A DNA stretch of 27,089 bases, from positions 1 to 27,089 of IMG/VR virus record IMGVR_UViG_3300035181_000084; one strand, written 5' to 3'. This stretch comes from a virus. The notes beneath the pieces are model-generated. The model had not been told where the DNA came from, ran no database searches, and worked only from the letters and a program-made list of their open reading frames with translations. Both the position numbers and the translations under genes were made by a program. Below, in pieces: positions 3,714-22,713 of the stretch. Position 1 is the stretch's first letter. The number at the start of each line of letters is the position of its first letter.

Positions 3714-4054
3714 ACTGTCTGTCCGGGAGAAACACTAAAGCTACCTTCTAGAAGACGAACCACGGTTCCATCAGAGCCTGTCAAAGTCAAGTCATAAGGA
3801 GAATTAGTAAAGGTAAGAGTGCTAGTTATAACTGCTGGAACCGTTAGAGAGATTGTTCCGGCTGTACCCCCTAGGACTATTAATCCATTAAGCGTGGATA
3901 GATCTAGCAATAAAGTACCATATACATCCTTGACTTGCAAGTGTGCAGAATACCCAGTTAAATCTACTGGTATCTTAGTGTTGCTATAATACGTAAGTAC
4001 TTTCGTAAAAGTAGCATTTTGCTCTATTAGAAAGTCTAACTTTCCTGCTGACAT
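3710..4054 (-). CDS. Small phage protein, BppU-N-terminus-like beta domain (114 aa)
   Basis: The layout matches a widespread small phage family: LDFLIEQNATFTKVLTYY, then PVDLTGYSAHLQVKD, a variable loop, NGLIVLGGTAGTISLTVPA, then YDLTLTGSDGTVVRLLEGSF ending SVSP. It reads as one all-beta domain like the N-terminal part of siphophage baseplate upper proteins. The start at 4054 has AAAGG 7 nt upstream. It is the first gene after the terminator at 4091-4119 and carries a TTAAAATA element 25 nt before the ATG, so it probably opens a new transcription unit reading left. Function is unknown beyond a likely structural role. Confidence 0.75.
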   Translation of the reverse strand: MSAGKLDFLIEQNATFTKVLTYYSNTKIPVDLTGYSAHLQVKDVYGTLLLDLSTLNGLIVLGGTAGTISLTVPAVITSTLTFTNSPYDLTLTGSDGTVVRLLEGSFSVSPGQTV

Positions 4055-4079
4055 AGTAGTACCTTTATTTGTATGAATC

Positions 4080-4087
4080 TATTTTAA
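4080..4087 (-). promoter_or_regulatory. TTAAAATA element, candidate late promoter for the 4054 gene
   Basis: The minus strand reads TTAAAATA here, directly downstream of the terminator hairpin, with 25 nt between the element and the ATG at 4054; an AAAGG ribosome site lies in between. The same octamer precedes several other gene starts in the window. A -10 box at this position would give a leader of about 20 nt. Promoter activity is inference. Confidence 0.45.
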
Positions 4088-4090
4088 ACT

Positions 4091-4119
4091 AAAAAACCCA
4101 CGTTGATTAGACGTGGGTT
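4091..4119 (-). terminator. Rho-independent terminator, leftward
   Basis: On the minus strand AACCCACGT pairs with ACGTGGGTT across a 7-nt loop (positions 4119-4111 with 4103-4095). This perfect 9-bp stem runs straight into six T residues (4096-4091). It ends transcription arriving from the right. It lies 18 bp beyond the stop of the holin-like remnant, so it was probably the natural end of the lysis gene block before the endonuclease gene was inserted. Confidence 0.9.
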
Positions 4120-4137
4120 AGATGAGCGTATTACCAG

Positions 4138-4260
4138 TTAAGCCGAAGGCTCAGTTTTTGATTTCAAAGCAATGCCTAAACCACCACCAGCCAGTAACAT
4201 TCCGAAGCCTGTCCCAAAGTCAACAAAGCTTAAAGAATATGTTTGAATGATTACTACTAT
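4138..4260 (-). pseudogene. Orphan C-terminal fragment of a holin-like membrane protein
   Basis: Minus-strand frame 4260-4138 reads 40 codons and a stop, beginning IVVIIQTYSLSFVDFGTGFG and ending ALKSKTEPSA. It aligns with the C-terminal half of the holin-like protein at 5204-5431 (FGLGMGAVFTSLG...LKSDTEPS). I count 12 identities over the last 25 aligned residues before the end, including LKS-x-TEPS. No ATG opens the frame and an in-frame TAA stands at 4270-4272. It follows the endonuclease gene and directly precedes the terminator, which fits a displaced 3' end of the holin gene. Alternatively it is expressed from a non-standard start: an ATA codon at 4260 lies 5 nt after a TTAAAATA box. Confidence 0.8.
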
Positions 4261-4265
4261 AGACT

Positions 4266-4273
4266 TATTTTAA
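4266..4273 (-). promoter_or_regulatory. TTAAAATA element upstream of the holin-like remnant
   Basis: The minus strand reads TTAAAATA, then AGTCT, then ATA, the first codon of the remnant frame. Element plus 5 nt is the same spacing seen before the ATGs at 6115, 9995 and 22904. Here the codon is ATA instead of ATG, so the element may be a relic or may serve an unusual start. The element overlaps the upstream region of the plus-strand endonuclease gene. Confidence 0.3.
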
Positions 4274-4287
4274 GATGAAGAATATTA

Positions 4288-4302
4288 TGTTATAATCAAA
4301 GG
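4288..4302 (+). promoter_or_regulatory. Extended -10-like box and ribosome site before the HNH gene
   Basis: The plus strand has TGT followed by TATAAT (4288-4296), a full extended -10 motif. AAAGG (4298-4302) then comes 2 nt before the ATG at 4305. No good -35 hexamer is visible. A start 7 nt below the -10 would fall at about the ribosome site, so if this is the promoter the message is almost leaderless; otherwise it is a chance match in AT-rich DNA. Confidence 0.4.
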
Positions 4303-4304
4303 AT

Positions 4305-4305
4305 A
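4305..4305 (+). other. Insertion junction region of the HNH gene, left side
   Basis: The change from holin-like sequence (up to 4260 on the minus strand) to endonuclease-associated sequence lies between about 4261 and 4305. The 45 bp hold only the elements described above. I see no inverted or direct repeat of the kind a transposon would leave. Confidence 0.35.
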
Positions 4306-5171
4306 TGGGTACTAATGATAAAATATGCAGAAAGTGTGGAGGCAGTTTTAGTAAAGCTAGGTGTGGCCACTGTGCTAGAGAATACTACAAAAATAGAGTT
4401 TTAGACACTACAACCACACACACGTGTAATAAGTGCGGACTACTGTACACCGGGCCTACTTGTAAGCCGTGTAAATCTAACTACAGTAGCAATTTTAACG
4501 CCAAGACGGTAACCGTGCTTGTAAAAAAGTGTACGAAATGTTTAATAGAAAAAGAGTCTAGTAAGTTTACTAAGAACTTACAACATAAGGATGGGTTAAG
4601 CTCCCAATGCTTGACTTGTATTGCAGAGTGTTCAAAGGCATGGTACGAGAAAAACAGGGAAGCTTCTTTAGGGAAGAAGGCTGAGTATCATGCTCTAAAT
4701 AAGGATAAGATAAAAATTAGAAAGATTGCTTACTATAAAAGTAATCCGGATAAACTAATTAGACAATCTGAGATGTCTAGAACCTATAGAAAGAGAAATC
4801 CAGTAACCGCTAAGGCTAGTGCTAAGAGGTACTACTTAACTAATTTAAATAAGATAAAAGAGTATGGTAAAGCATGGACCGCATTAAATAGAGATAAGAA
4901 AAGAGTTTATAAGAATAATCGAAGATGTAGAGAGCAATCTGGTAGACTTAGCTCTGATATAGTACGTAGGCTTTTAGAATTACAAGAGGGCAAGTGCGTA
5001 TCTTGTAAATTACCACTAGGGGTAAACTATCACATAGATCATATTATACCTCTGGTGAGAGGGGGTTTAAATATTGATTCCAATGTACAGCTACTACACA
5101 GTACATGCAACTTACAAAAAGGTGGTAAAGACCCTATCCTTTATATGCAAGAATTAGGATACTTACTTTAA
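4305..5171 (+). CDS. HNH homing-type endonuclease with three N-terminal zinc ribbons
   Basis: This is the only plus-strand gene (288 aa). The N-terminus carries three four-Cys zinc modules: C8/C11/C20/C23, C41/C44/C53/C56 and C76/C79/C102/C105. Residues 110-215 are a Lys/Tyr/Asn-rich helical region of about six repeats of roughly 17 residues (YYKSNPDKL, YYLTNLNKIKEYGKAW and similar), probably DNA-binding. The C-terminus is an HNH/McrA domain: C231-x2-C234, the catalytic D245-H246 within HIDHIIPL, then GG, N260, and H265-x2-C268-N269 with K272. It is expected to nick or cut DNA at a specific site and spread its own gene. It stands alone and faces the surrounding operon, inserted between the holin-like gene and its terminator. 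No intron structure is evident. Confidence 0.9.
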   Translation: MGTNDKICRKCGGSFSKARCGHCAREYYKNRVLDTTTTHTCNKCGLLYTGPTCKPCKSNYSSNFNAKTVTVLVKKCTKCLIEKESSKFTKNLQHKDGLSSQCLTCIAECSKAWYEKNREASLGKKAEYHALNKDKIKIRKIAYYKSNPDKLIRQSEMSRTYRKRNPVTAKASAKRYYLTNLNKIKEYGKAWTALNRDKKRVYKNNRRCREQSGRLSSDIVRRLLELQEGKCVSCKLPLGVNYHIDHIIPLVRGGLNIDSNVQLLHSTCNLQKGGKDPILYMQELGYLL

Positions 5172-5209
5172 CTAGGATACTTACTTTAACTAGGATACTT
5201 ACTTTAACT
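5156..5209. repeat. Three perfect 18-bp tandem repeats at the facing gene ends
   Basis: AGGATACTTACTTTAACT occurs three times in a row (5156-5173, 5174-5191, 5192-5209), followed by a partial AGG. The first copy holds the last codons and stop of the HNH gene; the last copy holds the final Ser codon and stop of the holin-like gene. Both reading frames therefore end inside the array. Each plus-strand copy supplies TAA and each minus-strand copy supplies TAA, so copy number can change without altering either protein. Confidence 0.95.
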
Positions 5210-5431
5210 AGGCTCAGTGTCACTCTTAAGGTTAAGTGCGGCCCCAAGAGAGGTAAATACAGCCCCCATCCCTAATCCAAACTGTGTCAGATCAAATACT
5301 TGTTTAAGCCATACTATAACGTATATCTCTAGGCCTAACCCAATCAGCACAGATAGTACTCCAAGCCATCTTATAAAATCTTGAGTTTCATTATCCTTGC
5401 CGGTTAAGAGTTGTTTTAACATAGTTCTCAT
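5204..5431 (-). CDS. Holin-like small membrane protein (75 aa)
   Basis: The N-terminus is short and charged (MRTMLKQLLTGKDNETQD). Two hydrophobic segments follow, about residues 19-42 (FIRWLGVLSVLIGLGLEIYV) and 51-68 (FGLGMGAVFTSLGAALNL), then the polar tail KSDTEPS. Size, two-segment layout and position directly after a muramidase gene fit a class II-type holin; the FG-x-G-x-G...KS-x-TEP tail is typical of small membrane proteins beside phage endolysins. The ATG touches the TAG of the endolysin gene and uses a GGGAG inside that gene's last codons. The C-terminus has a second homologous copy at 4138-4260, beyond the inserted HNH gene. Holin function is inferred, not shown. Confidence 0.75.
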   Translation of the reverse strand: MRTMLKQLLTGKDNETQDFIRWLGVLSVLIGLGLEIYVIVWLKQVFDLTQFGLGMGAVFTSLGAALNLKSDTEPS

Positions 5432-6115
5432 CTATTTAACTCCCTGTAATTTAGTAACCCAAGCTCTACAAATACTAATGCCTTTAGTACTCCATGTAGC
5501 AGACTTAGTGTTAGATTTAATATTAACAGAAGCTTGCATTAATAAACTAGCTAGCTCTGAGTTACAACTCTTACTGACAACCTCTAGGTTGAAAGCTATT
5601 CTATTTGCCCAGCCTGCCCCAAAAGTAGGCCAAGTACTAAGCTTGGTAAAGAACAGAAGTCTCTCTGCATCAAACTTAATAGCTAAAATGTGTGGCTCTG
5701 CTGTAGCTAGTACTTTTCTTGTAATAGGTCCAATGTGTCCGTCGTCTGCAACACCTAGTGCTCTTTGGAGAAACCTAGAGGCATTACCTGGGCCATTATT
5801 CAGAGAAGTATCAAAGACTTGTAAGGCAATAGGGTCTTGTAATGCATCACATCCACAACCTTTCCAAAAGTCTCTCTCGTAGATGTCTTTAGCCTCTTGC
5901 ATGTTTAAGCTTTTGATGTCTACGTGAGGATATGACTTGGAAGATACGCCGAATTTAGTTTCACCTCCTGGGTCTTTTGGATTATTTACATACCCACACT
6001 TCTTTCGGTTTGTAGGAGTAGAAATATCTCCGTCAATTATAGCCAAGTCTTCAGGGTTGAAGTCTGGACCACACTCGGAGCTCATTGCATAAAGGAAGGC
6101 GTCGTTAAAGTTCAT
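5432..6115 (-). CDS. Endolysin, GH108-type N-acetylmuramidase with C-terminal peptidoglycan-binding region
   Basis: A 227-residue protein. Residues 1-90 carry the GH108 core: the likely catalytic E14 in MSSECG, then GYVNNPKDPGGETKFGVS at 41-58 and SLNMQEAKDIYERDFWKGCGCDAL. Residues 96-136 have the companion binding module (VFDTSLNNGPG, FLQRALGV, DDGHIGP). It should cleave the glycan strands of the host wall at lysis. Compared with the shortest family members there are about 25 extra residues between the Glu motif and GYVNNP, a form I have seen in other phage lysins. No signal peptide or N-terminal membrane anchor is visible, so release through a holin is expected; the next gene encodes a holin-like protein. 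The ATG has no Shine-Dalgarno and follows TTAAAATA by 5 nt. Confidence 0.9.
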   Translation of the reverse strand: MNFNDAFLYAMSSECGPDFNPEDLAIIDGDISTPTNRKKCGYVNNPKDPGGETKFGVSSKSYPHVDIKSLNMQEAKDIYERDFWKGCGCDALQDPIALQVFDTSLNNGPGNASRFLQRALGVADDGHIGPITRKVLATAEPHILAIKFDAERLLFFTKLSTWPTFGAGWANRIAFNLEVVSKSCNSELASLLMQASVNIKSNTKSATWSTKGISICRAWVTKLQGVK

Positions 6116-6120
6116 AGGGG

Positions 6121-6128
6121 TATTTTAA
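6121..6128 (-). promoter_or_regulatory. TTAAAATA element, candidate late promoter of the endolysin gene
   Basis: The minus strand reads TTAAAATA, CCCCT, ATG, so the element ends 5 nt before the endolysin start. There is no Shine-Dalgarno in the gap or before it. The element is in the 20-bp gap between two genes. If the octamer covers -13 to -6, as in T4-type late promoters, the A of ATG is +1 and the mRNA is leaderless. Confidence 0.5.
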
Positions 6129-6135
6129 CCGTTTA

Positions 6136-6573
6136 CTACAGCGTAGAAGGTAGTGGTGGTAGGTCGTGTTGGATTAGCAATTTACCTGTGGGTTTGAAGG
6201 CTTGTGCTTCAGCCATAGACTGCTTACCTCCGCCTATACGCACAAGTATATCTAGTTGAGCTAGGAAAGCTACAGATTCATCTCCCCAGTCCGTACCTAC
6301 AATTTGTTTACGTACAACTGGGTAGCACTTATACATTGCAGCCTTACTACAAGCTACACCGGCAGTAGACCAACCATAAGACTTAGCAAGGTTATATGCA
6401 ACTGCGGGTATACCTAAATCAGTAAGCCCGGAAACCAATTCAACATCTTTACCATACTTTTGTTGAATTGGTTTCAGTGAAGACTCTAGCAGACGTATAG
6501 CTTCTGCTATGTCAAACTTTTGTGCCGAGTATCCTATAACTCCTACCTTAATCAGGGGTAACCTTTCAGTCAT
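6136..6573 (-). CDS. SLOG/LOG-like Rossmann-fold protein (145 aa)
   Basis: The protein starts with a beta strand and turn, KVGVIGYSAQKFD (9-21). A helix and the strand VELVSGLTDLGIPAVAYNLAKSYG (44-67) follow, then STAGVACSKA and LDILVRIGGGKQSMAEAQAFK (107-127). The GGG-x-QS-x-x-E signature matches the PGGxGTxxE type loop of the SLOG superfamily (DprA/LOG-like), which binds nucleotides or nucleotide-derived ligands. No nuclease or TIR domain is fused. It lies between the tailspike candidate and the endolysin and begins with ATG at 6573 without a clear Shine-Dalgarno. Enzyme (LOG-type phosphoribohydrolase) or ligand-binding function are both possible; the substrate cannot be read from sequence. 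Confidence 0.75.
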   Translation of the reverse strand: MTERLPLIKVGVIGYSAQKFDIAEAIRLLESSLKPIQQKYGKDVELVSGLTDLGIPAVAYNLAKSYGWSTAGVACSKAAMYKCYPVVRKQIVGTDWGDESVAFLAQLDILVRIGGGKQSMAEAQAFKPTGKLLIQHDLPPLPSTL

Positions 6574-6603
6574 TATAAAGTTTTTAAATTAGCGCATACT
6601 TGG

Positions 6604-8394
6604 TCATAACCCAGCCCAAGCAGGTGAAAACACTTGAGCAGTACGCGCCACTTCAAGCGCACCAATACTTCTAGGTGAAAACCGAATAGTGCCGTGATAG
6701 TCGGTTTCTTGCGTTGTTGCTTGCAGCCCAGCACCAGCGGCAATTGATGATGGTGACAGTATTGCGGGCAAGCCGTTTACATAACCAATGTCATTACCTT
6801 TTAATACGCCAGATATATTTGTCGGGTAAGTAGCATCATAATTACCACCCGAAGATGCTTTGCTTACTTTTGGGTTAGTGCCGTAATTTCCAATTACGCA
6901 GTTGTTCTTGATAACTGGAGTTCCACCTGACATAATCGTATCATTGTATGTTCCTCTCGGTGTATATGAACTGTAATCCCCATTAAGGATTTGCAGGTTG
7001 TTATTACACTTAAATGCCGTGATCGGTACAGAACCGCTAGGATTAGATGCTGTAAATATATTGGCTGCTACTACGTTAGTTCCTCCCTCAGATGTTAGTC
7101 TATGAGCATCCCCTTTGTGGTATGTATTTGGTGATAGAGATGAGCTAAAAATATTTGAATCAAAGTTGTAGTTAGATGTCCCAACACTACCAGAGTCTGT
7201 TATGTAAAAATCTTTGCAACAATCAAAAGCAATATTATTTCTCCAGGTTGCGACAGCACCTGAGTTCTCTTGCCACGGCAAATAACTATGTGCGGCAACA
7301 TTCCTCTCCCACACTGTACCACTACTTCCTTCCTCGCCATAAAAACAGCAACCATCAAAAGTTCTGTCACCAATACCATTGGCAAAATACTCAGCGTACT
7401 CGTCATGTACATAAGATGTTTGCCCAGATATATTTGCTGCTTGCCAATGTATTGCTCCGCCAAAGCTCGTACAGAGATTGCCACGAAGGTATTTATTATT
7501 ATAGGATTCTCCCGACACAACACCATAAGGTTTAAGGCAGTCAGTCATGATGTTGGTGAAAACATTGTCATGGAATGTAAACGAAACAATACCTGTAGCT
7601 GATGGTGCTTGCGGGTTATATGCAGACGTTACATTATTCCCTGTGCAGTGGTGCATCACAAAACCTTTATAATCTGTTGTTGCTGCCCCGTATTGTGGGC
7701 AAAATCCACCACCCTCAAAATCAAAGTACGACACTTCCGTATAAGCCAATGCTCGGAATGCGTAAAATAACGCCCTTGGGTATATTACAAGATTGGAAGC
7801 TCCAAAGAACGTCGTCGGATCTGCTGCTGACGTTAAACCCCCACCAGCAATATACAAAGTTTTAGACCCAGTTGGTATCATAAACCGCAAGGTATTTGCA
7901 GTCAGTCCGTTAGTCCCTATGGTTGAGGTCAGTAAGCCAGGAACATCCGAACCTGCTGCAAAGTGCCCAATAAGCGGAATGTAAGCACCGTTTATAATTA
8001 AACCAAAACCGCCTACTGCAATGTTGTTAGTTGTGGTTAAATACCAGGCGCTGTTAGTTGCATCCCATACCCAGTCCCCTGCAGACGGTTGCATAGTATA
8101 TTTGAACTTAGGTAAAGGTAAGCTGGTAGAGCCATAGGCGGTCATGATTATAGGATTACCAGATGCGCCATTAACCAGCATGGATAAATCTATGTAGTTG
8201 TGAAGCACGATATTATCTACAATGGCAAACAAAGATCCTCTTGCAAAATACAGCGTAGACCCCGCAGGAAGCTGTGTAGATGTTAGATGCCCTGTGAAAT
8301 TGTTGTTAAGCATATTCAGAGTTGTAAAGGCATCTACTTGGCTTGTGCCATTATTAGCCCCTGTAGCATTACTATCGAAGTAATAAATAGCCAT
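6604..8394 (-). CDS. Tailspike candidate with right-handed beta-helix (pectate-lyase-like) fold
   Basis: A 596-residue protein. The start IYYFDSNATGANNGTS (3-18) is the standard opening of pectate-lyase-like beta-helix proteins, followed by AGSTLYFARGSLF and NPIIMTAYGS. The central 350 residues are repeated short strands with Asn/Gly turns (FTFHDNVFTNI, YNNKYLRGNLC, VWERNVAAHSYL, WRNNIAFDCCKDFYI). The end, DYHGTIRFSPRSIGALE, is the usual cap motif of such proteins. In a phage tail locus this suggests a spike that binds and may cleave a surface polysaccharide. No catalytic residues can be assigned with confidence. The N-terminal virion-attachment domain is missing or very short, so it may dock on the preceding gene product. 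GGAG lies 8 nt before the ATG; the preceding gene stops 2 nt before it. Confidence 0.8.
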   Translation of the reverse strand: MAIYYFDSNATGANNGTSQVDAFTTLNMLNNNFTGHLTSTQLPAGSTLYFARGSLFAIVDNIVLHNYIDLSMLVNGASGNPIIMTAYGSTSLPLPKFKYTMQPSAGDWVWDATNSAWYLTTTNNIAVGGFGLIINGAYIPLIGHFAAGSDVPGLLTSTIGTNGLTANTLRFMIPTGSKTLYIAGGGLTSAADPTTFFGASNLVIYPRALFYAFRALAYTEVSYFDFEGGGFCPQYGAATTDYKGFVMHHCTGNNVTSAYNPQAPSATGIVSFTFHDNVFTNIMTDCLKPYGVVSGESYNNKYLRGNLCTSFGGAIHWQAANISGQTSYVHDEYAEYFANGIGDRTFDGCCFYGEEGSSGTVWERNVAAHSYLPWQENSGAVATWRNNIAFDCCKDFYITDSGSVGTSNYNFDSNIFSSSLSPNTYHKGDAHRLTSEGGTNVVAANIFTASNPSGSVPITAFKCNNNLQILNGDYSSYTPRGTYNDTIMSGGTPVIKNNCVIGNYGTNPKVSKASSGGNYDATYPTNISGVLKGNDIGYVNGLPAILSPSSIAAGAGLQATTQETDYHGTIRFSPRSIGALEVARTAQVFSPAWAGL

Positions 8395-8396
8395 GT

Positions 8397-9128
8397 TTAA
8401 TACTCCAAAGCTGCAGTGTATCCAATTAAATCAAAAGCGTCTGCGGCGTTAGAAGCGGATATATCAAAAGATATATACATTACTGATGCCGTGTTTATGT
8501 TTGTTGTTTTCGTAGCAATCCCTGATACGCCTTGTCCTTGTGGTGCTAGCCAAAGGTCAGTCATAATGCTCGTTGAGTTAGTGATAAAGGCATTTGTATC
8601 AATACGAGCATCCTTCAAATCAGTCGCTGTAAGCTGAAGGTTAAATAAAAAAGAGTCAGTAGATGTGCCAGTTGTACCTAATCGAATATTGAGATTGGCA
8701 GTAGACGTCGCGCCTCTACGATGAACCCACGCTGCAACTTTCAATTGAATGCCTGGCGATAATACGTTAGCTTGTATTGATGGGTTACCACCTGATAAGG
8801 TTATAGCCCCTGCTGTTCCACCGGTGTATGTCCCTAATGGAGTTACCAGCGTACCGAAATTCCGTAGTATATTAACCCTACCATTAAGCGGATACCAATT
8901 TGTGCCGTTAGATTGCCACAAGCTGCCAAAGGATGATGTGCCAATGTCAGTAATGCGTATGATACTGCCAGCATTACCAGTTGCTGCCGTTGGCTTGCCA
9001 GCCCACGTGTAAGCTGGTGCTGTACCTGATACGGCTACACCTGCGTTGGTTTCAAGCCCGATTAAATTTCCGCTTACGTCATAGTTAAAGTATGCCGCAT
9101 TCGGATTAACCACATTTTCATTAGCCAT
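8397..9128 (-). CDS. Putative tail fibre or spike-base protein (243 aa)
   Basis: I use the ATG at 9128 (MANENVVNPN), which begins 2 nt after the stop of the small frame 9131-9214, in preference to an upstream TTG with no ribosome site. The N-terminal half is a typical phage-fibre opening (AAYFNYDVSGNLIGLETNAG, then SLWQSNGTNWYPLNGRVNIL). The C-terminal half alternates strands (IQLKVAAWVHRRGATSTANL, DSFLFNLQLTATDL, ASVMYISFDISA) like a jelly-roll carbohydrate-binding domain. It directly precedes the beta-helix gene and is likely part of the same adsorption structure, perhaps its anchor. No enzyme motif is seen. Confidence 0.7.
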   Translation of the reverse strand: MANENVVNPNAAYFNYDVSGNLIGLETNAGVAVSGTAPAYTWAGKPTAATGNAGSIIRITDIGTSSFGSLWQSNGTNWYPLNGRVNILRNFGTLVTPLGTYTGGTAGAITLSGGNPSIQANVLSPGIQLKVAAWVHRRGATSTANLNIRLGTTGTSTDSFLFNLQLTATDLKDARIDTNAFITNSTSIMTDLWLAPQGQGVSGIATKTTNINTASVMYISFDISASNAADAFDLIGYTAALEY

Positions 9129-9130
9129 AG

Positions 9131-9214
9131 TTAACCACACACCATAGAACAAGAAGTAGTCGAAGTGCCAGCAGAGCGCGTGACACTGACATGTAAGATA
9201 TTAAAAGTATTCAT
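9131..9214 (-). pseudogene. Short frame with a degenerate copy of the preceding gene's C-terminus
   Basis: A 27-codon frame from ATG 9214 to TAA 9131 reads MNTFNILHVSVTRSAGTSTTSCSMVCG. Its middle, HVSVTRSAGTST, mirrors HIRVTRSAGTSS near the end of the 111-residue protein at 9217-9552, and both finish with a Cys. It starts 2 nt after that gene's stop and stops 2 nt before the next gene. It is best read as the tail of a partly deleted tandem duplicate, though a tiny coupled peptide cannot be excluded. Confidence 0.6.
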
Positions 9215-9216
9215 AA

Positions 9217-9552
9217 TTAGCACACCGTAAAGTAAGATGCGGATGATGTTCCAGCGCTGCGGGTTACTCGGATATGCGTACAGCCCGAAGTAAGAATAAA
9301 GCCAGTATCAGCAATAGTTACTGCTCCTCCACTAGGTAAAGTAGCCCAAACGTTTCCACCGTCCCTGGACTGTTCCACTTTCAAAGTATCACCCGACATA
9401 GGATACAAGACTATAGTACACGGTAAAGGAGCACCCGTCATAGACACGGAAACTGGTGTTCCATCTAACAGATAGGAACGGTCTATCCAACCACCCGACA
9501 TAGTATCAGTTTCTCTGGCTACGCTAGGGTTTGTAAAAACTACTGTACTCAT
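9217..9552 (-). CDS. Small phage protein of unknown function (111 aa)
   Basis: An all-beta protein: DRSYLLDGTPVSVSMTGAPLPCTIVLYPMSGDTLKVEQSRDGGNVWATLPSG, then TIADTGFILTSGCTHIRVTRSAGTSS. The phrase VEQSRDGGNVWATLP resembles the bead-like beta domains of phage surface proteins that describe a measured amplitude on a strand, but I cannot name a family. The ATG overlaps the TGA of the nuclease gene before it by 4 bases (ATGA). Its C-terminal 20 residues are echoed in the small frame that follows, which suggests an old tandem duplication. A virion decoration or fibre-base role is a guess from position. Confidence 0.65.
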   Translation of the reverse strand: MSTVVFTNPSVARETDTMSGGWIDRSYLLDGTPVSVSMTGAPLPCTIVLYPMSGDTLKVEQSRDGGNVWATLPSGGAVTIADTGFILTSGCTHIRVTRSAGTSSASYFTVC

Positions 9553-10910: not shown

Positions 10911-11498
10911 TTACCAAACTATATCTGCTACGTCTGTTAGCGCAGTAGTGGATGTGTTGTCTATTGCATTTACCTGTCCTGCTAAAGTGTTGTTTTTAAC
11001 TAAGGCTGAAGCTATATAAGTATTTGCATCAGCACCTACTTGTTGTATTTGGGCAGCAGTGTGACTAACATAACCCCAAACCCCGCTTGTATCACAACAA
11101 AGAAAAGAGGTAGTCCAGCTAGCTGGAAGATTTGGGTACAAACTGCTAAGTACTCTAGCTGCTAGATTGGTCTGATCTTTATCATTAGCAGGGTAGGTGT
11201 ACGTTGAGCCTAAAGCGTTTGAGGTAAACCCTGCATAAATATAGTCTTGGCATGATTTAGACAAGGACGCAATTTTAGCAGCTTTAGTGCTATCTACTAT
11301 TTCTGCTATTGTTGGTGCTGGTGCTGGAATAACAGTCACCACTCCAGATACAACAGATAGCGTAGCCCCTTGAGGACGATTGACGCAGTTTTGGAATGTG
11401 GATTCGTCTGCGTCGATTAAGTCTGTTGGCAGATTGCTATAGTTTGATAAAAAGTCTACTGGGTAGAATGATTTAGTAGTGTCTGAGTATTTATACAT
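10911..11498 (-). CDS. Tail fibre assembly chaperone, DUF4376-like (third pair)
   Basis: I choose the ATG at 11498 (MYKYSDTTKSFYPVDFL), which lies 2 nt after the preceding gene's stop and behind AGGA, over a start 24 codons upstream that would overlap the fibre gene. The N-terminal 80 residues match the variable part of tail fibre assembly proteins (DATFQNCVNRPQG-like region). The C-terminal domain has the DUF4376 pattern: CQDYIYAGFTSNALGS, YPANDKDQTNLAARVL, FLCCDTSGVWGYVSHTAAQIQQVG, closing ALTDVADIVW. It should help fold or mount the adhesin encoded just upstream (11501-12457). Compared with the other two chaperones it is the most diverged. Confidence 0.85.
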   Translation of the reverse strand: MYKYSDTTKSFYPVDFLSNYSNLPTDLIDADESTFQNCVNRPQGATLSVVSGVVTVIPAPAPTIAEIVDSTKAAKIASLSKSCQDYIYAGFTSNALGSTYTYPANDKDQTNLAARVLSSLYPNLPASWTTSFLCCDTSGVWGYVSHTAAQIQQVGADANTYIASALVKNNTLAGQVNAIDNTSTTALTDVADIVW

Positions 11499-11500
11499 GG

Positions 11501-12457
11501 TTAATATCCTATTGAACGCCATTTTATAGTAACAGAAGATTGACCAGCTCCAGAGGTAGAGCAAGCCCATAACGTCAATTGACTGACGCTACCGTTGTCT
11601 GTCCCCACGATATACGGGGAATTTACCTGGCTCATGTACAAACTTCCCTCTTGCCATAAAACCGAATTTGGATATACAACTGGGCGATTAACAGTTACAG
11701 ATCCGCCTGCACCCGTTGTTCCATAACCCCACTGCTCAATAAAATACCCAGTTGGGCTGCTTGCGTCTGGGTATTTTTTCCAGCCGTTACTTCCTAGCGA
11801 GCTGAGGAACATACTAGACAGTAGAATAGATGCAGTTGCACTTACGGGCTGTACTAGCGTAGGACTAGACCAACCAGTACCGCTAGTCCATGTCGCGTTA
11901 ACTAAGCCAATGACTCGATACTGTGATGCTGTAGTAATTGCACTTGTGGAGTACCACACGTTTGAGGCAGTAGAACCTGATCCAATCGCAGTTGTAGTAA
12001 TCAGATTAGTTTCATCAAGTTGTAATCCACCAGATAGATTACAAACAGCTAATTGTGGTGCCCCTGCATTGTAAACAATTACGTAAATTAGAGATGCAGC
12101 AACTGCGGTTGTTGCACCTAATGAGGCAGATGTATTATTCATTGCCAGCGTTAATGTGCTTGTTACGTTGTACTCAACTGGTGTACCAGTAGTTAACACA
12201 GCATTACGAAAATCTACTTTACCAGTTCCGAGCGAGGCTGATATTAGATTTGAGGTAGTTGATGCGGTAAAGTTCGGCATCGAGCTGGAATATCTTATGT
12301 CGGCTTGACCTAGATTAACTACCTGACCACTTGCAGTTGCGGAAGGAGCTGTCAAAGGCTGTGCCACTGTTGCACTAGAACCTGTAAAGGTAATAGCATC
12401 TACTCCGTTAAGCTGTACTGCACAATCGCTAGTTCCTGATCTTATTGAGGTTGTCAT
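11501..12457 (-). CDS. Tail fibre adhesin (third pair), Gp53-like C-terminal tip
   Basis: A 318-residue protein. Residues 1-40 are a short N-terminal domain. Residues 41-205 are a beta-rich body nearly identical to residues 61-225 of the adhesin at 13022-14020. Residues 215-318 are a different tip: SNGWKKYPDASSPTGYFIEQWG, then VNRPVVYPNSVLW, ending IKWRSIGY, the pattern of the Gp53-like tail fibre C-terminal domain. It is expected to contact the host surface. AGGAC lies 7 nt before the ATG. Its dedicated chaperone follows directly. Shared body with a swapped tip indicates recombination or duplication between fibre genes. Confidence 0.85.
   Translation of the reverse strand: MTTSIRSGTSDCAVQLNGVDAITFTGSSATVAQPLTAPSATASGQVVNLGQADIRYSSSMPNFTASTTSNLISASLGTGKVDFRNAVLTTGTPVEYNVTSTLTLAMNNTSASLGATTAVAASLIYVIVYNAGAPQLAVCNLSGGLQLDETNLITTTAIGSGSTASNVWYSTSAITTASQYRVIGLVNATWTSGTGWSSPTLVQPVSATASILLSSMFLSSLGSNGWKKYPDASSPTGYFIEQWGYGTTGAGGSVTVNRPVVYPNSVLWQEGSLYMSQVNSPYIVGTDNGSVSQLTLWACSTSGAGQSSVTIKWRSIGY
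11843..12337 (-). repeat. Fibre-body duplication, copy A
   Basis: This 495-bp block encodes residues 41-205 of the adhesin and matches 13346-13840. I count about 23 amino-acid differences in 165 positions, and long DNA stretches are near identical. The match ends sharply at LVQPV, where the tips diverge. Confidence 0.9.
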
Positions 12458-12472
12458 TATTAAGTCCTGTAA

Positions 12473-13012
12473 TTACCAAACTATTTTAGTCACGGCTGTG
12501 ACCTTAGTCGCTGCACGTATTGCAGCTTTTAAATCTTGCTTATGAGTAAAAGCAGAATTGGCAATATTACCACTTGCTACATATAGGCCCTGCAACTGTT
12601 CTAAAGTCATTGGCACCTTAACGTTTGTAGTGTCCCACCAGCCAAAGTCTGCAGGAATAGTTTCTCCAATATCCACAATTGATTTTAGCCAGTTGATGGA
12701 TTTTAACATCGAGTCCTGACTATCCTTGTCAGCTTGAAAGGTCGTGGTCATGTACGTGACTGGTTGCGGTATAGCAGTGTCGTAGGCGCTATCTATTATG
12801 GCTAGTTGTGTTTGCTGTGCTGCTGTTAAAGTAACAGCTGCAACATAAGGAACTAAAACGCCACCTTTGAAGCATCTTTGTCCACTGTTGTTAATGCACT
12901 CAAGCCACTGGTCGTCTGTAATCTCAATAGCTACTTGTGGGATGGTTTTGTTAATATCATCTGAATAAAATGCAGTTGGTAGCCCGTTTGCATCTAATGT
13001 TGTGTATTTCAT
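12473..13012 (-). CDS. Tail fibre assembly chaperone, DUF4376-like (second pair)
   Basis: A 179-residue protein with the two-part layout of fibre chaperones. The N-terminal section is MKYTTLDANGLPTAFYSDD followed by TDDQWLECINNSGQRCFKGG. The C-terminal DUF4376 domain has IDSAYDTAIPQPVTYMTTTF, QADKDSQDSM, IPADFGWWDTTNVKVPMTLE, HKQDLKAAIRAAT and the ending VTAVTKIVW. This closely resembles the chaperone at 14038-14529. AAGGA stands about 8 nt before the ATG at 13012. It sits directly after the adhesin at 13022-14020 and is presumably specific for it. Confidence 0.85.
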   Translation of the reverse strand: MKYTTLDANGLPTAFYSDDINKTIPQVAIEITDDQWLECINNSGQRCFKGGVLVPYVAAVTLTAAQQTQLAIIDSAYDTAIPQPVTYMTTTFQADKDSQDSMLKSINWLKSIVDIGETIPADFGWWDTTNVKVPMTLEQLQGLYVASGNIANSAFTHKQDLKAAIRAATKVTAVTKIVW

Positions 13013-13021
13013 TGTTTATCC

Positions 13022-14020
13022 TTAATAGCCAATTGCGAACCAAAAAATATTTACTGGGAAATTAGAGATTCCACCATTCACTTGTAGAAATACTCCAATA
13101 CTTGACTGCGAAAGCGAATAAACTTGTGCCCAATAGTCATTATTGGCAGCCCCTGATGATATTAAGACTGTCGCGCTGGCATTTAAGCACACATTTGGGA
13201 AAGCTATGGGGAACGTAACTGTTTGTCCTGATTCACTGCTAAAAGATGCACTCTTACCCCACTGTATAATCAGACCACTAGGAAGTTTTTGATAACCACT
13301 GCTAGTTAATGAGTTGCTGAAGTTTTGCATAGCCTGGCCAACTCCAACTGGCTGCACCAGCGTAGGACTAGACCAACCAGTACCGCTAATCCATGTAGCG
13401 TCAACACGTCCGATAATCCGATACTGAGATGCTGTAGTAATTGCTGTCGTTGAGTACCACGCATTATTAGCCGTTGAGCCTGCGCCGATTGCAGTAGTGG
13501 TAATCAGATTAGTTTCATCTAGTTGTAATCCGCCAGATAGATTACAAACAGCTAATTGCGGATTACCTGCATTGTAAACAATTGCATAAATTAGAGATGT
13601 GGCTACTGCTGTGGTTGCACCTAATGACGCAGCAGCACTGTTCATTACCAGAGTTAATGCAGAGGTTATAGTATACTCAACAGGAGTACCAGTAGTTAAC
13701 ACAGCATTACGAAAATCTACTTTACCAGTTCCAAGTGTTGCGGATATTAGAGCTGATGCAGTTGATGCGGTGAAGTTCGGCATCGAGCTGGAATATCTTG
13801 TGTCAGCTTGACCTAAATTAACTACCTGACCAGTTGCAGTTGCGGCAGATACATTTAGTCCCCCACCTGTATCTATAGTGAATATATCCTGACTAGTGGC
13901 TCCAGCATTCCCACGAGCTAACTTAGCAGTGCCATCCACGTTTGTTTGAAGTACAAAGTTCTGTGTAGCTGTTGCACTATCACCGAGCTGTACTTGATTT
14001 ACTTTTATTTGTCCTGACAT
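13022..14020 (-). CDS. Tail fibre adhesin (second pair), Gp53-like C-terminal tip
   Basis: A 332-residue protein. The N-terminus, MSGQIKVNQVQLGDSATATQ followed by NVDGTAKLARG, is the common attachment segment of phage fibres. Residues 61-225 are the body shared with the adhesin at 11501-12457. The tip (about 235-332) has SSGYQKLPSGLIIQWG, TVTFPIAFPNV and the closing NIFWFAIGY, a textbook Gp53-like tail fibre C-terminal domain. GGGGA lies 9 nt before the ATG. It is the best preserved of the three adhesins, and its tip differs almost entirely from that of the third. Confidence 0.88.
   Translation of the reverse strand: MSGQIKVNQVQLGDSATATQNFVLQTNVDGTAKLARGNAGATSQDIFTIDTGGGLNVSAATATGQVVNLGQADTRYSSSMPNFTASTASALISATLGTGKVDFRNAVLTTGTPVEYTITSALTLVMNSAAASLGATTAVATSLIYAIVYNAGNPQLAVCNLSGGLQLDETNLITTTAIGAGSTANNAWYSTTAITTASQYRIIGRVDATWISGTGWSSPTLVQPVGVGQAMQNFSNSLTSSGYQKLPSGLIIQWGKSASFSSESGQTVTFPIAFPNVCLNASATVLISSGAANNDYWAQVYSLSQSSIGVFLQVNGGISNFPVNIFWFAIGY
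13346..13840 (-). repeat. Fibre-body duplication, copy B
   Basis: This block encodes residues 61-225 of the second adhesin and matches 11843-12337. The shared block is flanked on both sides by unrelated or only distantly related sequence, so the body has been duplicated or converted as a unit. Confidence 0.9.
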
Positions 14021-14037
14021 TTATTATATTCCCCTAA

Positions 14038-14529
14038 TCACCAAACTATTTTAGTCACGGCTGAAACGGTAGTTGCTGCACGTATTGCGGCTTTCTGCGT
14101 TTGCTTGTGGACGAATAGCGCATTTACGTTAGCCACACCAGTCGCAAATAATCCTTGGAGTTGTAACAGCGTCATTGTTACTGGCTGATTGTTTACATCG
14201 TACCAGGCAAAGTTTGCTGGTACTGTTCCACCTGTTGCAACAATAGCTTGCAACCCTGTGATTGCACGGTTCATCAAATCCTGACTATCTTTGTCCGCTT
14301 GAAATGTCGTGTTCATATACGCTACTGGCTGCTGCATTGCTGTGTCGTATGCACTGTCAATTACGGCCAGTTGCGTTTGCTGTGCTGCTGCTAACAACTG
14401 CGCTGCCGTGGGTGCAGGGAGGGTGTACGGCTGCAAAGTGGCTGGCGTGTTGGGAAACGCGTGAATATCCGTCACGTCGTCTTCAAATTGCCAGATATTG
14501 CCTGTTATGCTGTCTTTAAATGTTTGCAT
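14038..14529 (-). CDS. Tail fibre assembly chaperone, DUF4376-like (first pair)
   Basis: I choose the ATG at 14529 (MQTFKDSITGNIWQFEDDV), behind AAGGA, because a longer form starting at 14556 would overlap the preceding fibre gene and has no ribosome site. The N-terminal segment is short. The DUF4376 domain runs from AAQQTQLAVIDSAYDTAMQQ through TTFQADKDSQDLMNRAI and PANFAWYDVNNQPVTMTLLQ to HKQTQKAAIRAATTVSAVTKIVW. Its C-terminal half is close to the second chaperone, showing common origin. It should serve the short fibre protein at 14538-14981. Confidence 0.85.
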   Translation of the reverse strand: MQTFKDSITGNIWQFEDDVTDIHAFPNTPATLQPYTLPAPTAAQLLAAAQQTQLAVIDSAYDTAMQQPVAYMNTTFQADKDSQDLMNRAITGLQAIVATGGTVPANFAWYDVNNQPVTMTLLQLQGLFATGVANVNALFVHKQTQKAAIRAATTVSAVTKIVW

Positions 14530-14537
14530 GATTTTCC

Positions 14538-14981
14538 TTAGAGTATTTCTTGCCATGTGTTTAATGTTATGGTTCCCAAGTTACCACCAGCGACATAAGT
14601 AGCACCTGGCGGGACTATCCATATGCTGCCAACACCACCATTAGCCGTGAACGCAGAAGCCCCATAGACGAGAATGCCGTTAATTGTTAGCGTCGCAGTA
14701 AACGACGGACTAGACGACGACATATCAATATAAACAACGCGAGATTTTGATGTGCTGTTAGTGTATGTGATGCCAAGTGCCCTAGTTGGCGCTTGTAAAG
14801 TCTGCCCAATGCCAAAAGCCTGCCCCACATTTATGGCATCTGTATCCGCAACACCTGCTGCGACAGAAAATTTGTTGGCTGTGTTTCCTAGTAAGGCTGC
14901 ATAACGCGCGTCAAAAGCAGTTGAATCACCAATGCCTGTTACCTGACTTACCCCCGTTGTTCCATTTACTTGTACGCTCAT
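14538..14981 (-). CDS. Short tail fibre protein (first pair)
   Basis: I start it at the ATG at 14981 (MSVQVNGTTGVSQ), which shares one base with the stop of the preceding gene (TAATG) and has GGAG 9 nt upstream. The 146 residues begin like a fibre (GDSTAFDARYAALLGNTANK) and end in a compact beta domain (RVVYIDMSSSSPSFTATLTI, GSIWIVPPGATYVAGGNLG, TLNTWQEIL) like small receptor-binding tips. It has no repeated body domain. It may be a fibre tip or an alternative adhesin attached to the same adaptor; its chaperone follows. Confidence 0.75.
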   Translation of the reverse strand: MSVQVNGTTGVSQVTGIGDSTAFDARYAALLGNTANKFSVAAGVADTDAINVGQAFGIGQTLQAPTRALGITYTNSTSKSRVVYIDMSSSSPSFTATLTINGILVYGASAFTANGGVGSIWIVPPGATYVAGGNLGTITLNTWQEIL

Positions 14982-22020: not shown

Positions 22021-22713
22021 TTACACCAATCCTACGTCTTGTTTAAGGGTTTTTATCTTTTCTATAAGCTTGGAGCTTAGGTAGTTAAGCCTATTAATAT
22101 TTACTCCTACCTTACTAGCCAATTCTGAAGCAGGCATTGTACCTTTATTATCGAATATCAACTTCTCTTCTGTTGTAAGCTGACCCATAATATAATCATA
22201 CAAAATTTTGTTATTATCAAACTGTTTGTATTCGGTCGGCTTCATTGCAGCAGACTCTACTAAGTCAGCGTATAACCCGCCCTTATACTTGACAGTGGCG
22301 GCCTTGGACCAGTTAAGTTCTTTAGCAATCTCTTCATCAGAAGGATCTCTATTTAATCTATCTGAAAGGTTAGTAACGGCTTGGTTGTAGTCATGATACT
22401 TTAGCTGCAAGTTCTCTGGTAATCTAACCATGTTTTGAAACTTGTAGTTCATACGACGAATCTTAGGTAAGTAGCCTACGACGTGCGTGGAAATAGATGC
22501 ACCCTTAGTCGGGTCATACGTCTGTATTGCTTTAACTGTCCATTTCTTGGCTTCAGCGGATAGTGCAGAAGTAGGCAGACTACCAGAGGCTCTTTTAACT
22601 TCCGAGTAGATTAAAGGATTCAGTTGATTAACTAATTCTCCTAAAGTCTTCTTGTCTCCCGTCTCTTTCCAAGATTCATATAGCTCTTGGTCGCGTCTTT
22701 TAACTTCACTCAT
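22021..22713 (-). CDS. Sigma-70-like RNA polymerase sigma factor (phage late sigma candidate)
   Basis: A 230-residue protein. Residues 55-100 resemble sigma region 2: KKWTVKAIQTYDPTKGASIS, THVVGYLPKIRRMNY, then NMVRLPEN, matching the bacterial pattern aFD..kG..FsTya...i......RlP. Residues 112-140 resemble region 3 (TNLSDRLNRDPSDEEIAKEL-NWS). Residues 178-224 resemble region 4, with a helix-turn-helix-like ASELASKVGVNINRLNYLSS and the ending KLIEKIKTLKQ. Region 1.1 is absent. It probably directs host polymerase to phage promoters, a role like T4 gp55. It is unusual in lying between a 64-residue structural-region gene (ATGA overlap) and baseplate genes, so it would be made together with virion parts. 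A structural reuse of the fold cannot be excluded. Confidence 0.8.
   Translation of the reverse strand: MSEVKRRDQELYESWKETGDKKTLGELVNQLNPLIYSEVKRASGSLPTSALSAEAKKWTVKAIQTYDPTKGASISTHVVGYLPKIRRMNYKFQNMVRLPENLQLKYHDYNQAVTNLSDRLNRDPSDEEIAKELNWSKAATVKYKGGLYADLVESAAMKPTEYKQFDNNKILYDYIMGQLTTEEKLIFDNKGTMPASELASKVGVNINRLNYLSSKLIEKIKTLKQDVGLV

Follow-up and report, generated by a model that had tools for sequence, protein, structure and literature searches.

Results

Organization of the lysis locus

The window, by which we mean the whole stretch of DNA analysed here, comprises 27,089 nt and corresponds to positions 1 to 27,089 of the IMG/VR virus record IMGVR_UViG_3300035181_000084. Its lysis operon lies on the minus strand. 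The endolysin gene (5432-6115) encodes a GH108/PG_binding_3 protein (PF05838, E 1e-19; PHROG 315, endolysin) and is adjoined by an intact gene for a hydrophobic, holin-like protein of 75 aa (5204-5431, minus strand). An HNH endonuclease gene encoding 288 aa comes next on the plus strand (4305-5171), antisense to the lysis operon. Beyond it lies, again on the minus strand, a second and truncated holin-like sequence, referred to below as the stub. The translation of minus strand 4138-4260 reads IVVIIQTYSLSFVDFGTGFGMLLAGGGLGIALKSKTEPSA*, and no ATG is present ahead of its internal Met. An 18-bp perfect tandem repeat of 3.2 copies, detected by TRF at 5155-5212, runs across both stop codons of the convergent pair formed by the HNH gene and the intact holin-like gene. 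Before this local 18-bp duplication took place, the stops of the two genes would have overlapped or lain directly next to each other.

No match for the 75-aa protein was found among the curated holin families of PHROG, Pfam and NCBIfam. Its size, its hydrophobicity and its endolysin neighbour indicate that holin is the likely role of this protein, and strongly hydrophobic relatives are encoded near lysis genes. A family profile built from ten members detected both copies in the window (intact gene, E 4e-35; stub, E 3e-10). Among 95 loci with a match to the family, the window is the only one that holds two copies.

The original prediction had placed the HNH gene between an intact holin-like gene and a fragment of 40 codons (4138-4260) homologous to the C-terminus of that gene, with a terminator beyond the fragment. 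This observation was confirmed. The open reading frames and their coordinates were as claimed, and the homology between the fragment and the C-terminus of the intact gene gave an alignment score of 62 against a best score of 55 in 2000 shuffles. The remnant is real but slightly longer than proposed, extending over about 4138-4272, which corresponds to the last ~42 codons and the stop codon of the resident holin-like gene. Within 4000-5600, only one terminator-like hairpin was reported, and it is located directly past the stub (4119-4095, minus strand); it consists of a 9-bp stem followed by a T-run, and it is the intrinsic terminator of the late/lysis operon in its ancestral position.

In the tail/baseplate region of the window, a 230-aa protein (22021-22713) matches a PHROG (E 2e-8) whose annotation is RNA polymerase sigma factor. 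This family could be mis-annotated or fused.

Relatives without the HNH gene

When the endolysin and the gene that lies downstream of the terminator were each used as a query, the same pair of IMG/VR contigs (L001 and L002) was retrieved at 96-99%. Over 20 kb these two sequences are 99.8% identical, and they are therefore treated as a single lineage. Apart from replaced segments, both are collinear to the window at an identity of about 95%. At the matching site they have no HNH gene; a single holin-like gene of 78 codons follows directly after the endolysin and ends before a terminator of nearly identical sequence. According to the original prediction, the holin gene of relatives that lack the HNH gene should run straight into the terminator and match the fragment at its 3' end. 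When this test was run, the holin-like gene of L001/L002 was found to do so, its 3' end matching 4138-4272. The HNH gene was also sought elsewhere in both relative contigs (G001 and G002), and no match was obtained.

The presence of two family members in the window could also reflect an old tandem pair or duplication, in which a later insertion of the HNH gene into the downstream copy deleted the 5' end of that copy, and the upstream copy disappeared from the L001 lineage. The relatives with two tandem holin genes that the original prediction had named as evidence for such a history were sought at the 95 loci bearing the family, and none was found. In addition, the single gene of L001 starts exactly where the foreign gene of the window does, so that the loss in L001 would need to have extended exactly from one start codon to the other. 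The copies in the window are also too diverged for a recent duplication. We therefore regard this history as very unlikely.

Breakpoints of the replaced segment

The homology between the window and L001/L002 halts at 5428, at the start codon of the intact holin-like gene, and resumes at about 4262-4273 (blastn); the identity outside these points is 95-96%. Between them, about 1,160 bp carrying the HNH gene and a complete, diverged holin-like gene (4263-5427) stand where the relatives have about 108 bp (L001 4689-4796). These 108 bp are the 5' part of the resident holin-like gene, from the start codon to about codon 36. The GC content of the incoming segment is 36.5%, compared with 41.2% in the window. 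The lost 5' part of the resident gene was searched for elsewhere in the window, and only chance matches of 11 bp were found. A chimeric assembly was considered for this contig and rejected, since both flanks are collinear with the relatives at about 95-96%. Taken together, an insertion-replacement scar at 4138-5431 is well supported.

The two junctions were also compared with the relatives. The endolysin, the conserved flank of the swap on its holin start side, is 96% identical to that of L001, and its divergence is not raised at the junction. At the right junction, only a short CTATA match precedes the point at which the homology resumes, so that a joining event independent of the nuclease is possible.

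Wholesale differences between the window and its about 95% identical relative G001 were also noticed at 6117-9382, immediately upstream of the endolysin, and at 11322-14895, in a region that encodes tail-fibre-like proteins and has internal repeats. Neither of these replaced segments was seen to contain an HNH gene.

These features bear on an alternative in which the scar arose by ordinary module exchange, that is by homologous recombination within the endolysin and illegitimate joining within the resident holin gene, with the HNH gene as a mere passenger. The short CTATA match and the two further whole-segment replacements relative to G001 are what this explanation would lead one to expect. 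However, the HNH gene sits at the boundary of the exchange, where phage homing genes often occur (PMC10448857). We consider module exchange of this kind unlikely, although it deserves to be weighed seriously, and favour a replacement driven by the nuclease.

Origin of the intact holin-like gene

The intact 75-aa protein has full-length relatives in L142, L143, L145 and L147 at 55-62%, and shares 34% with the holin-like protein of L001. Its N-terminal half has 21-22 of 38 residues in common with L142/L147 and 11 of 38 with L001; the corresponding values for the C-terminal half are 19-20 of 37 and 14 of 36. The affinity to L142/L147 is alike in both halves (51-58%), and since both are equally close to these full-length proteins, the intact gene is not chimeric. 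For either half, L142, L143 and L147 are the nearest family members.

These results depart from the original prediction in one respect. It had held that the endonuclease arrived with a donor 3' end by which the holin gene is now completed, so that the 5' part of the gene would be resident and its 3' part would come from the donor. The shared ACTGAGCCT and KSxTEPS tail at the 3' ends of the intact gene and the stub could be read in this way. However, the 5' half of the intact gene is closer to L142/L147 than to L001, and DNA homology to the relatives ends at its start codon, so the gene is foreign from the start codon on and not merely at its 3' end. The tail is uninformative on displacement because K-x-x-TEP is also present in other full-length family members, such as L142, L143 and L147. 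We judge a fusion of this type highly improbable. A transfer of the C-terminal part alone is likewise ruled out by the identities of the separate halves and by the position of the breakpoint at the start codon, unless the 5' half of the ancestral gene differed from that of L001. The earlier interpretation of the locus is thus partly supported: the displaced resident end stands, and the hybrid holin does not. Instead, the complete holin-like gene appears to have come in together with the convergent HNH gene, as a single segment.

The displaced 3' end

Over 4138-4272, the stub and the last ~42 codons of the L001 holin-like gene are about 90% identical in nucleotide sequence. At the protein level, 35 of its 40 residues are identical to L001, compared with at most 16 for any other family member. 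Its relation to the intact gene is visible at the protein level, with almost no similarity in DNA.

The differences between the stub and L001 are unevenly distributed. In the distal 29-30 codons, six are synonymous and none is non-synonymous (P about 3e-4 if the sequence were unconstrained), whereas in the proximal 12 codons (4236-4272) six are non-synonymous and none is synonymous. The two parts differ with a Fisher P of 0.002, a value to be read with the fact that the split point was picked post hoc, after the data had been seen. Because the differences in the distal part are all synonymous, the truncation looks recent. Such a pattern would be unlikely unless the distal part had diverged mostly before the gene was truncated, or constraint still acts on the stub. 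The proximal patch may be a flank derived from the donor or a change associated with repair, and the data fit both.

A constrained stub might be functional, for instance as a short peptide or as an RNA that tunes lysis. The absence of non-synonymous change from its distal 29 codons would suit such a role, and it still lies within the predicted late transcript, ahead of the terminator. However, there is no ATG upstream of the internal Met, no Rfam match was found, and a recent truncation accounts equally well for the conservation. A function of the stub therefore seems hardly credible to us, and it is presumably a non-functional by-product of the replacement.

The HNH endonuclease and the search for a donor

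The HNH protein matches PF01844 (E 1e-8) and PHROG 1035, endonuclease VII (E 6e-22). It has N-terminal CxxC zinc-ribbon-like motifs, basic repeats and a C-terminal HNH domain, in which the HIDH...N...N active-site residues are conserved with L092/L093. The nuclease domain is intact and belongs to the HNH/endonuclease VII-like class, which is common in phages. No match to Rfam families, such as those of introns, was found around the gene.

The closest relatives of the HNH protein over long stretches share 24-38% with it, and none of those fetched lies near this holin family in the arrangement of the window. A donor with the holin-HNH pair was not found among viral contigs and phage records searched for the HNH and the holin-like protein, or among genome contigs searched for the HNH protein; the contig searches used short peptide patterns, which can miss moderately diverged relatives.

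A comparable insertion was observed in another group of phages that carry the same holin family. In L125, an endonuclease VII-like HNH gene (1883-2545) is inserted at the stop codon of the endolysin gene, likewise in L124, L177 and L178, and L118 and others are without it there. The difference between L125 and L118 is an independent parallel in phages of the same holin family. An endonuclease VII-like gene also adjoins lysin A in the Mycobacterium phages Optimus, Wanda, Baka and Minerva. Separately, a conserved HNH-like open reading frame of ~138 aa (CWVCGTKE..EVHHFHIEW..CEKHHRGVNHGIHMLPYPMWI) was noticed just upstream of the holin-like gene in many contigs of the family, overlapping the holin start (L103 3585-4001, L100 3573-3989, L125 2582-3004 and L158 2517-2993).

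Discussion

In this study, we conclude that a resident holin-like gene was partly replaced by a foreign segment carrying a holin-like gene and an HNH gene, most likely via intronless homing. We assign this overall reading a probability of roughly 0.68. The order endolysin, holin-like gene of 78 codons and terminator is present in L001/L002 and was probably that of the ancestor as well. The replacement itself is evident at the locus: the resident gene gave way to the segment between the start codon and about codon 36, and the last ~42 codons of the resident gene remain beyond the HNH gene. The donor would have been another phage, in which a complete, diverged holin-like gene was arranged tail-to-tail with a convergent HNH gene. 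During co-infection, the nuclease may have broken or nicked DNA in or around the resident holin gene. The phage with the nuclease gene would then have served as the template for repair, by which both the nuclease gene and the linked holin allele would have been copied in. The incoming allele would keep lysis working and would be without the target site. Homing by the HNH nuclease of the window is plausible but unproven.

Free-standing phage endonucleases such as the T4 seg and mob proteins move by intronless homing, with marker exclusion and co-conversion; their cut sites lie away from their own genes, and their mobility converts flanking sequence (PMC2988022). The window resembles these systems in that a free-standing nuclease gene between phage genes is present here and absent from a close collinear relative, that neighbouring resident sequence has been exchanged for nuclease-linked sequence, and that the nuclease domain of the HNH protein is intact and of a class known for homing. 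Unlike in T4 seg/mob homing, however, the window keeps a truncated resident gene beside the complete foreign allele, and the nuclease gene is antisense to the operon. A homing nuclease in the window would be expected to cleave or nick the allele without the nuclease gene and to be inherited with bias.

Nuclease genes often mark the boundaries of exchange between phages and may form HEG-islands (PMC10448857). The window shares with these a nuclease that borders an exchanged phage gene, but it has one nuclease, one cargo gene and a readable scar. Genes split by the insertion of a homing endonuclease gene are known as well, as with mobA in gene 39/60 of T4 (PMC2988022) and mobE in nrdA of Aeh1 (PMC5009743). 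There too an HNH gene lies within a phage gene; both pieces of those genes are expressed and reassemble, whereas the resident 5' piece is gone from the window and a complete foreign gene substitutes for it.

The arrangement in the window appears to resemble most closely the mORFs of fungal mitochondria, with a whole gene as cargo. These are described for atp6 of Allomyces and for atp6, atp9, cox2 and nad3 of Glomus. In these, a foreign C-terminus arrives with the nuclease and is joined in frame to the 5' part of the native host gene, and the native C-terminus remains downstream (PMC3630166). This displaced native 3' end shows mostly synonymous differences from its relatives and is far closer to them than the incoming copy is (PMC3630166). 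Similarly, the nuclease of the window travels with foreign coding sequence of a host gene, the native 3' end is left beyond the nuclease gene, and the stub differs from its relatives mainly synonymously and is much closer to them than the incoming copy is. However, the window gained a complete gene and no hybrid. We tested for the in-phase fusion that defines mORFs and found none, and the locus is therefore not filed as one. The nucleases of mORFs are LAGLIDADG or GIY-YIG proteins, whereas that of the window is an HNH protein encoded on the opposite strand.

A stronger version of the homing explanation is that the HNH gene and the complete holin-like gene form a self-contained cassette, in which the nuclease cuts the resident holin gene and the linked holin gene serves as both replacement and resistance allele. 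We hold this version only tentatively, as a possibility with the odds against it. If it is true, such a two-gene cassette would be the counterpart in bacterial viruses of the mitochondrial mORFs, swapping a whole lysis gene. In a literature search of partial coverage, we found no described phage case in which a complete lysis gene had been swapped as in the window. The locus is nevertheless a variant of an already known process of gene swapping between phages.

Here the displaced end, both breakpoints and the uninvaded site are all legible, so that the locus documents cleanly how homing genes of phages may take important neighbouring genes along with them. The homing explanation predicts that the cut site of the nuclease lies in or near a lysis gene. 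It also suggests that linked replacement alleles may allow such nucleases to enter important genes without killing the phage.
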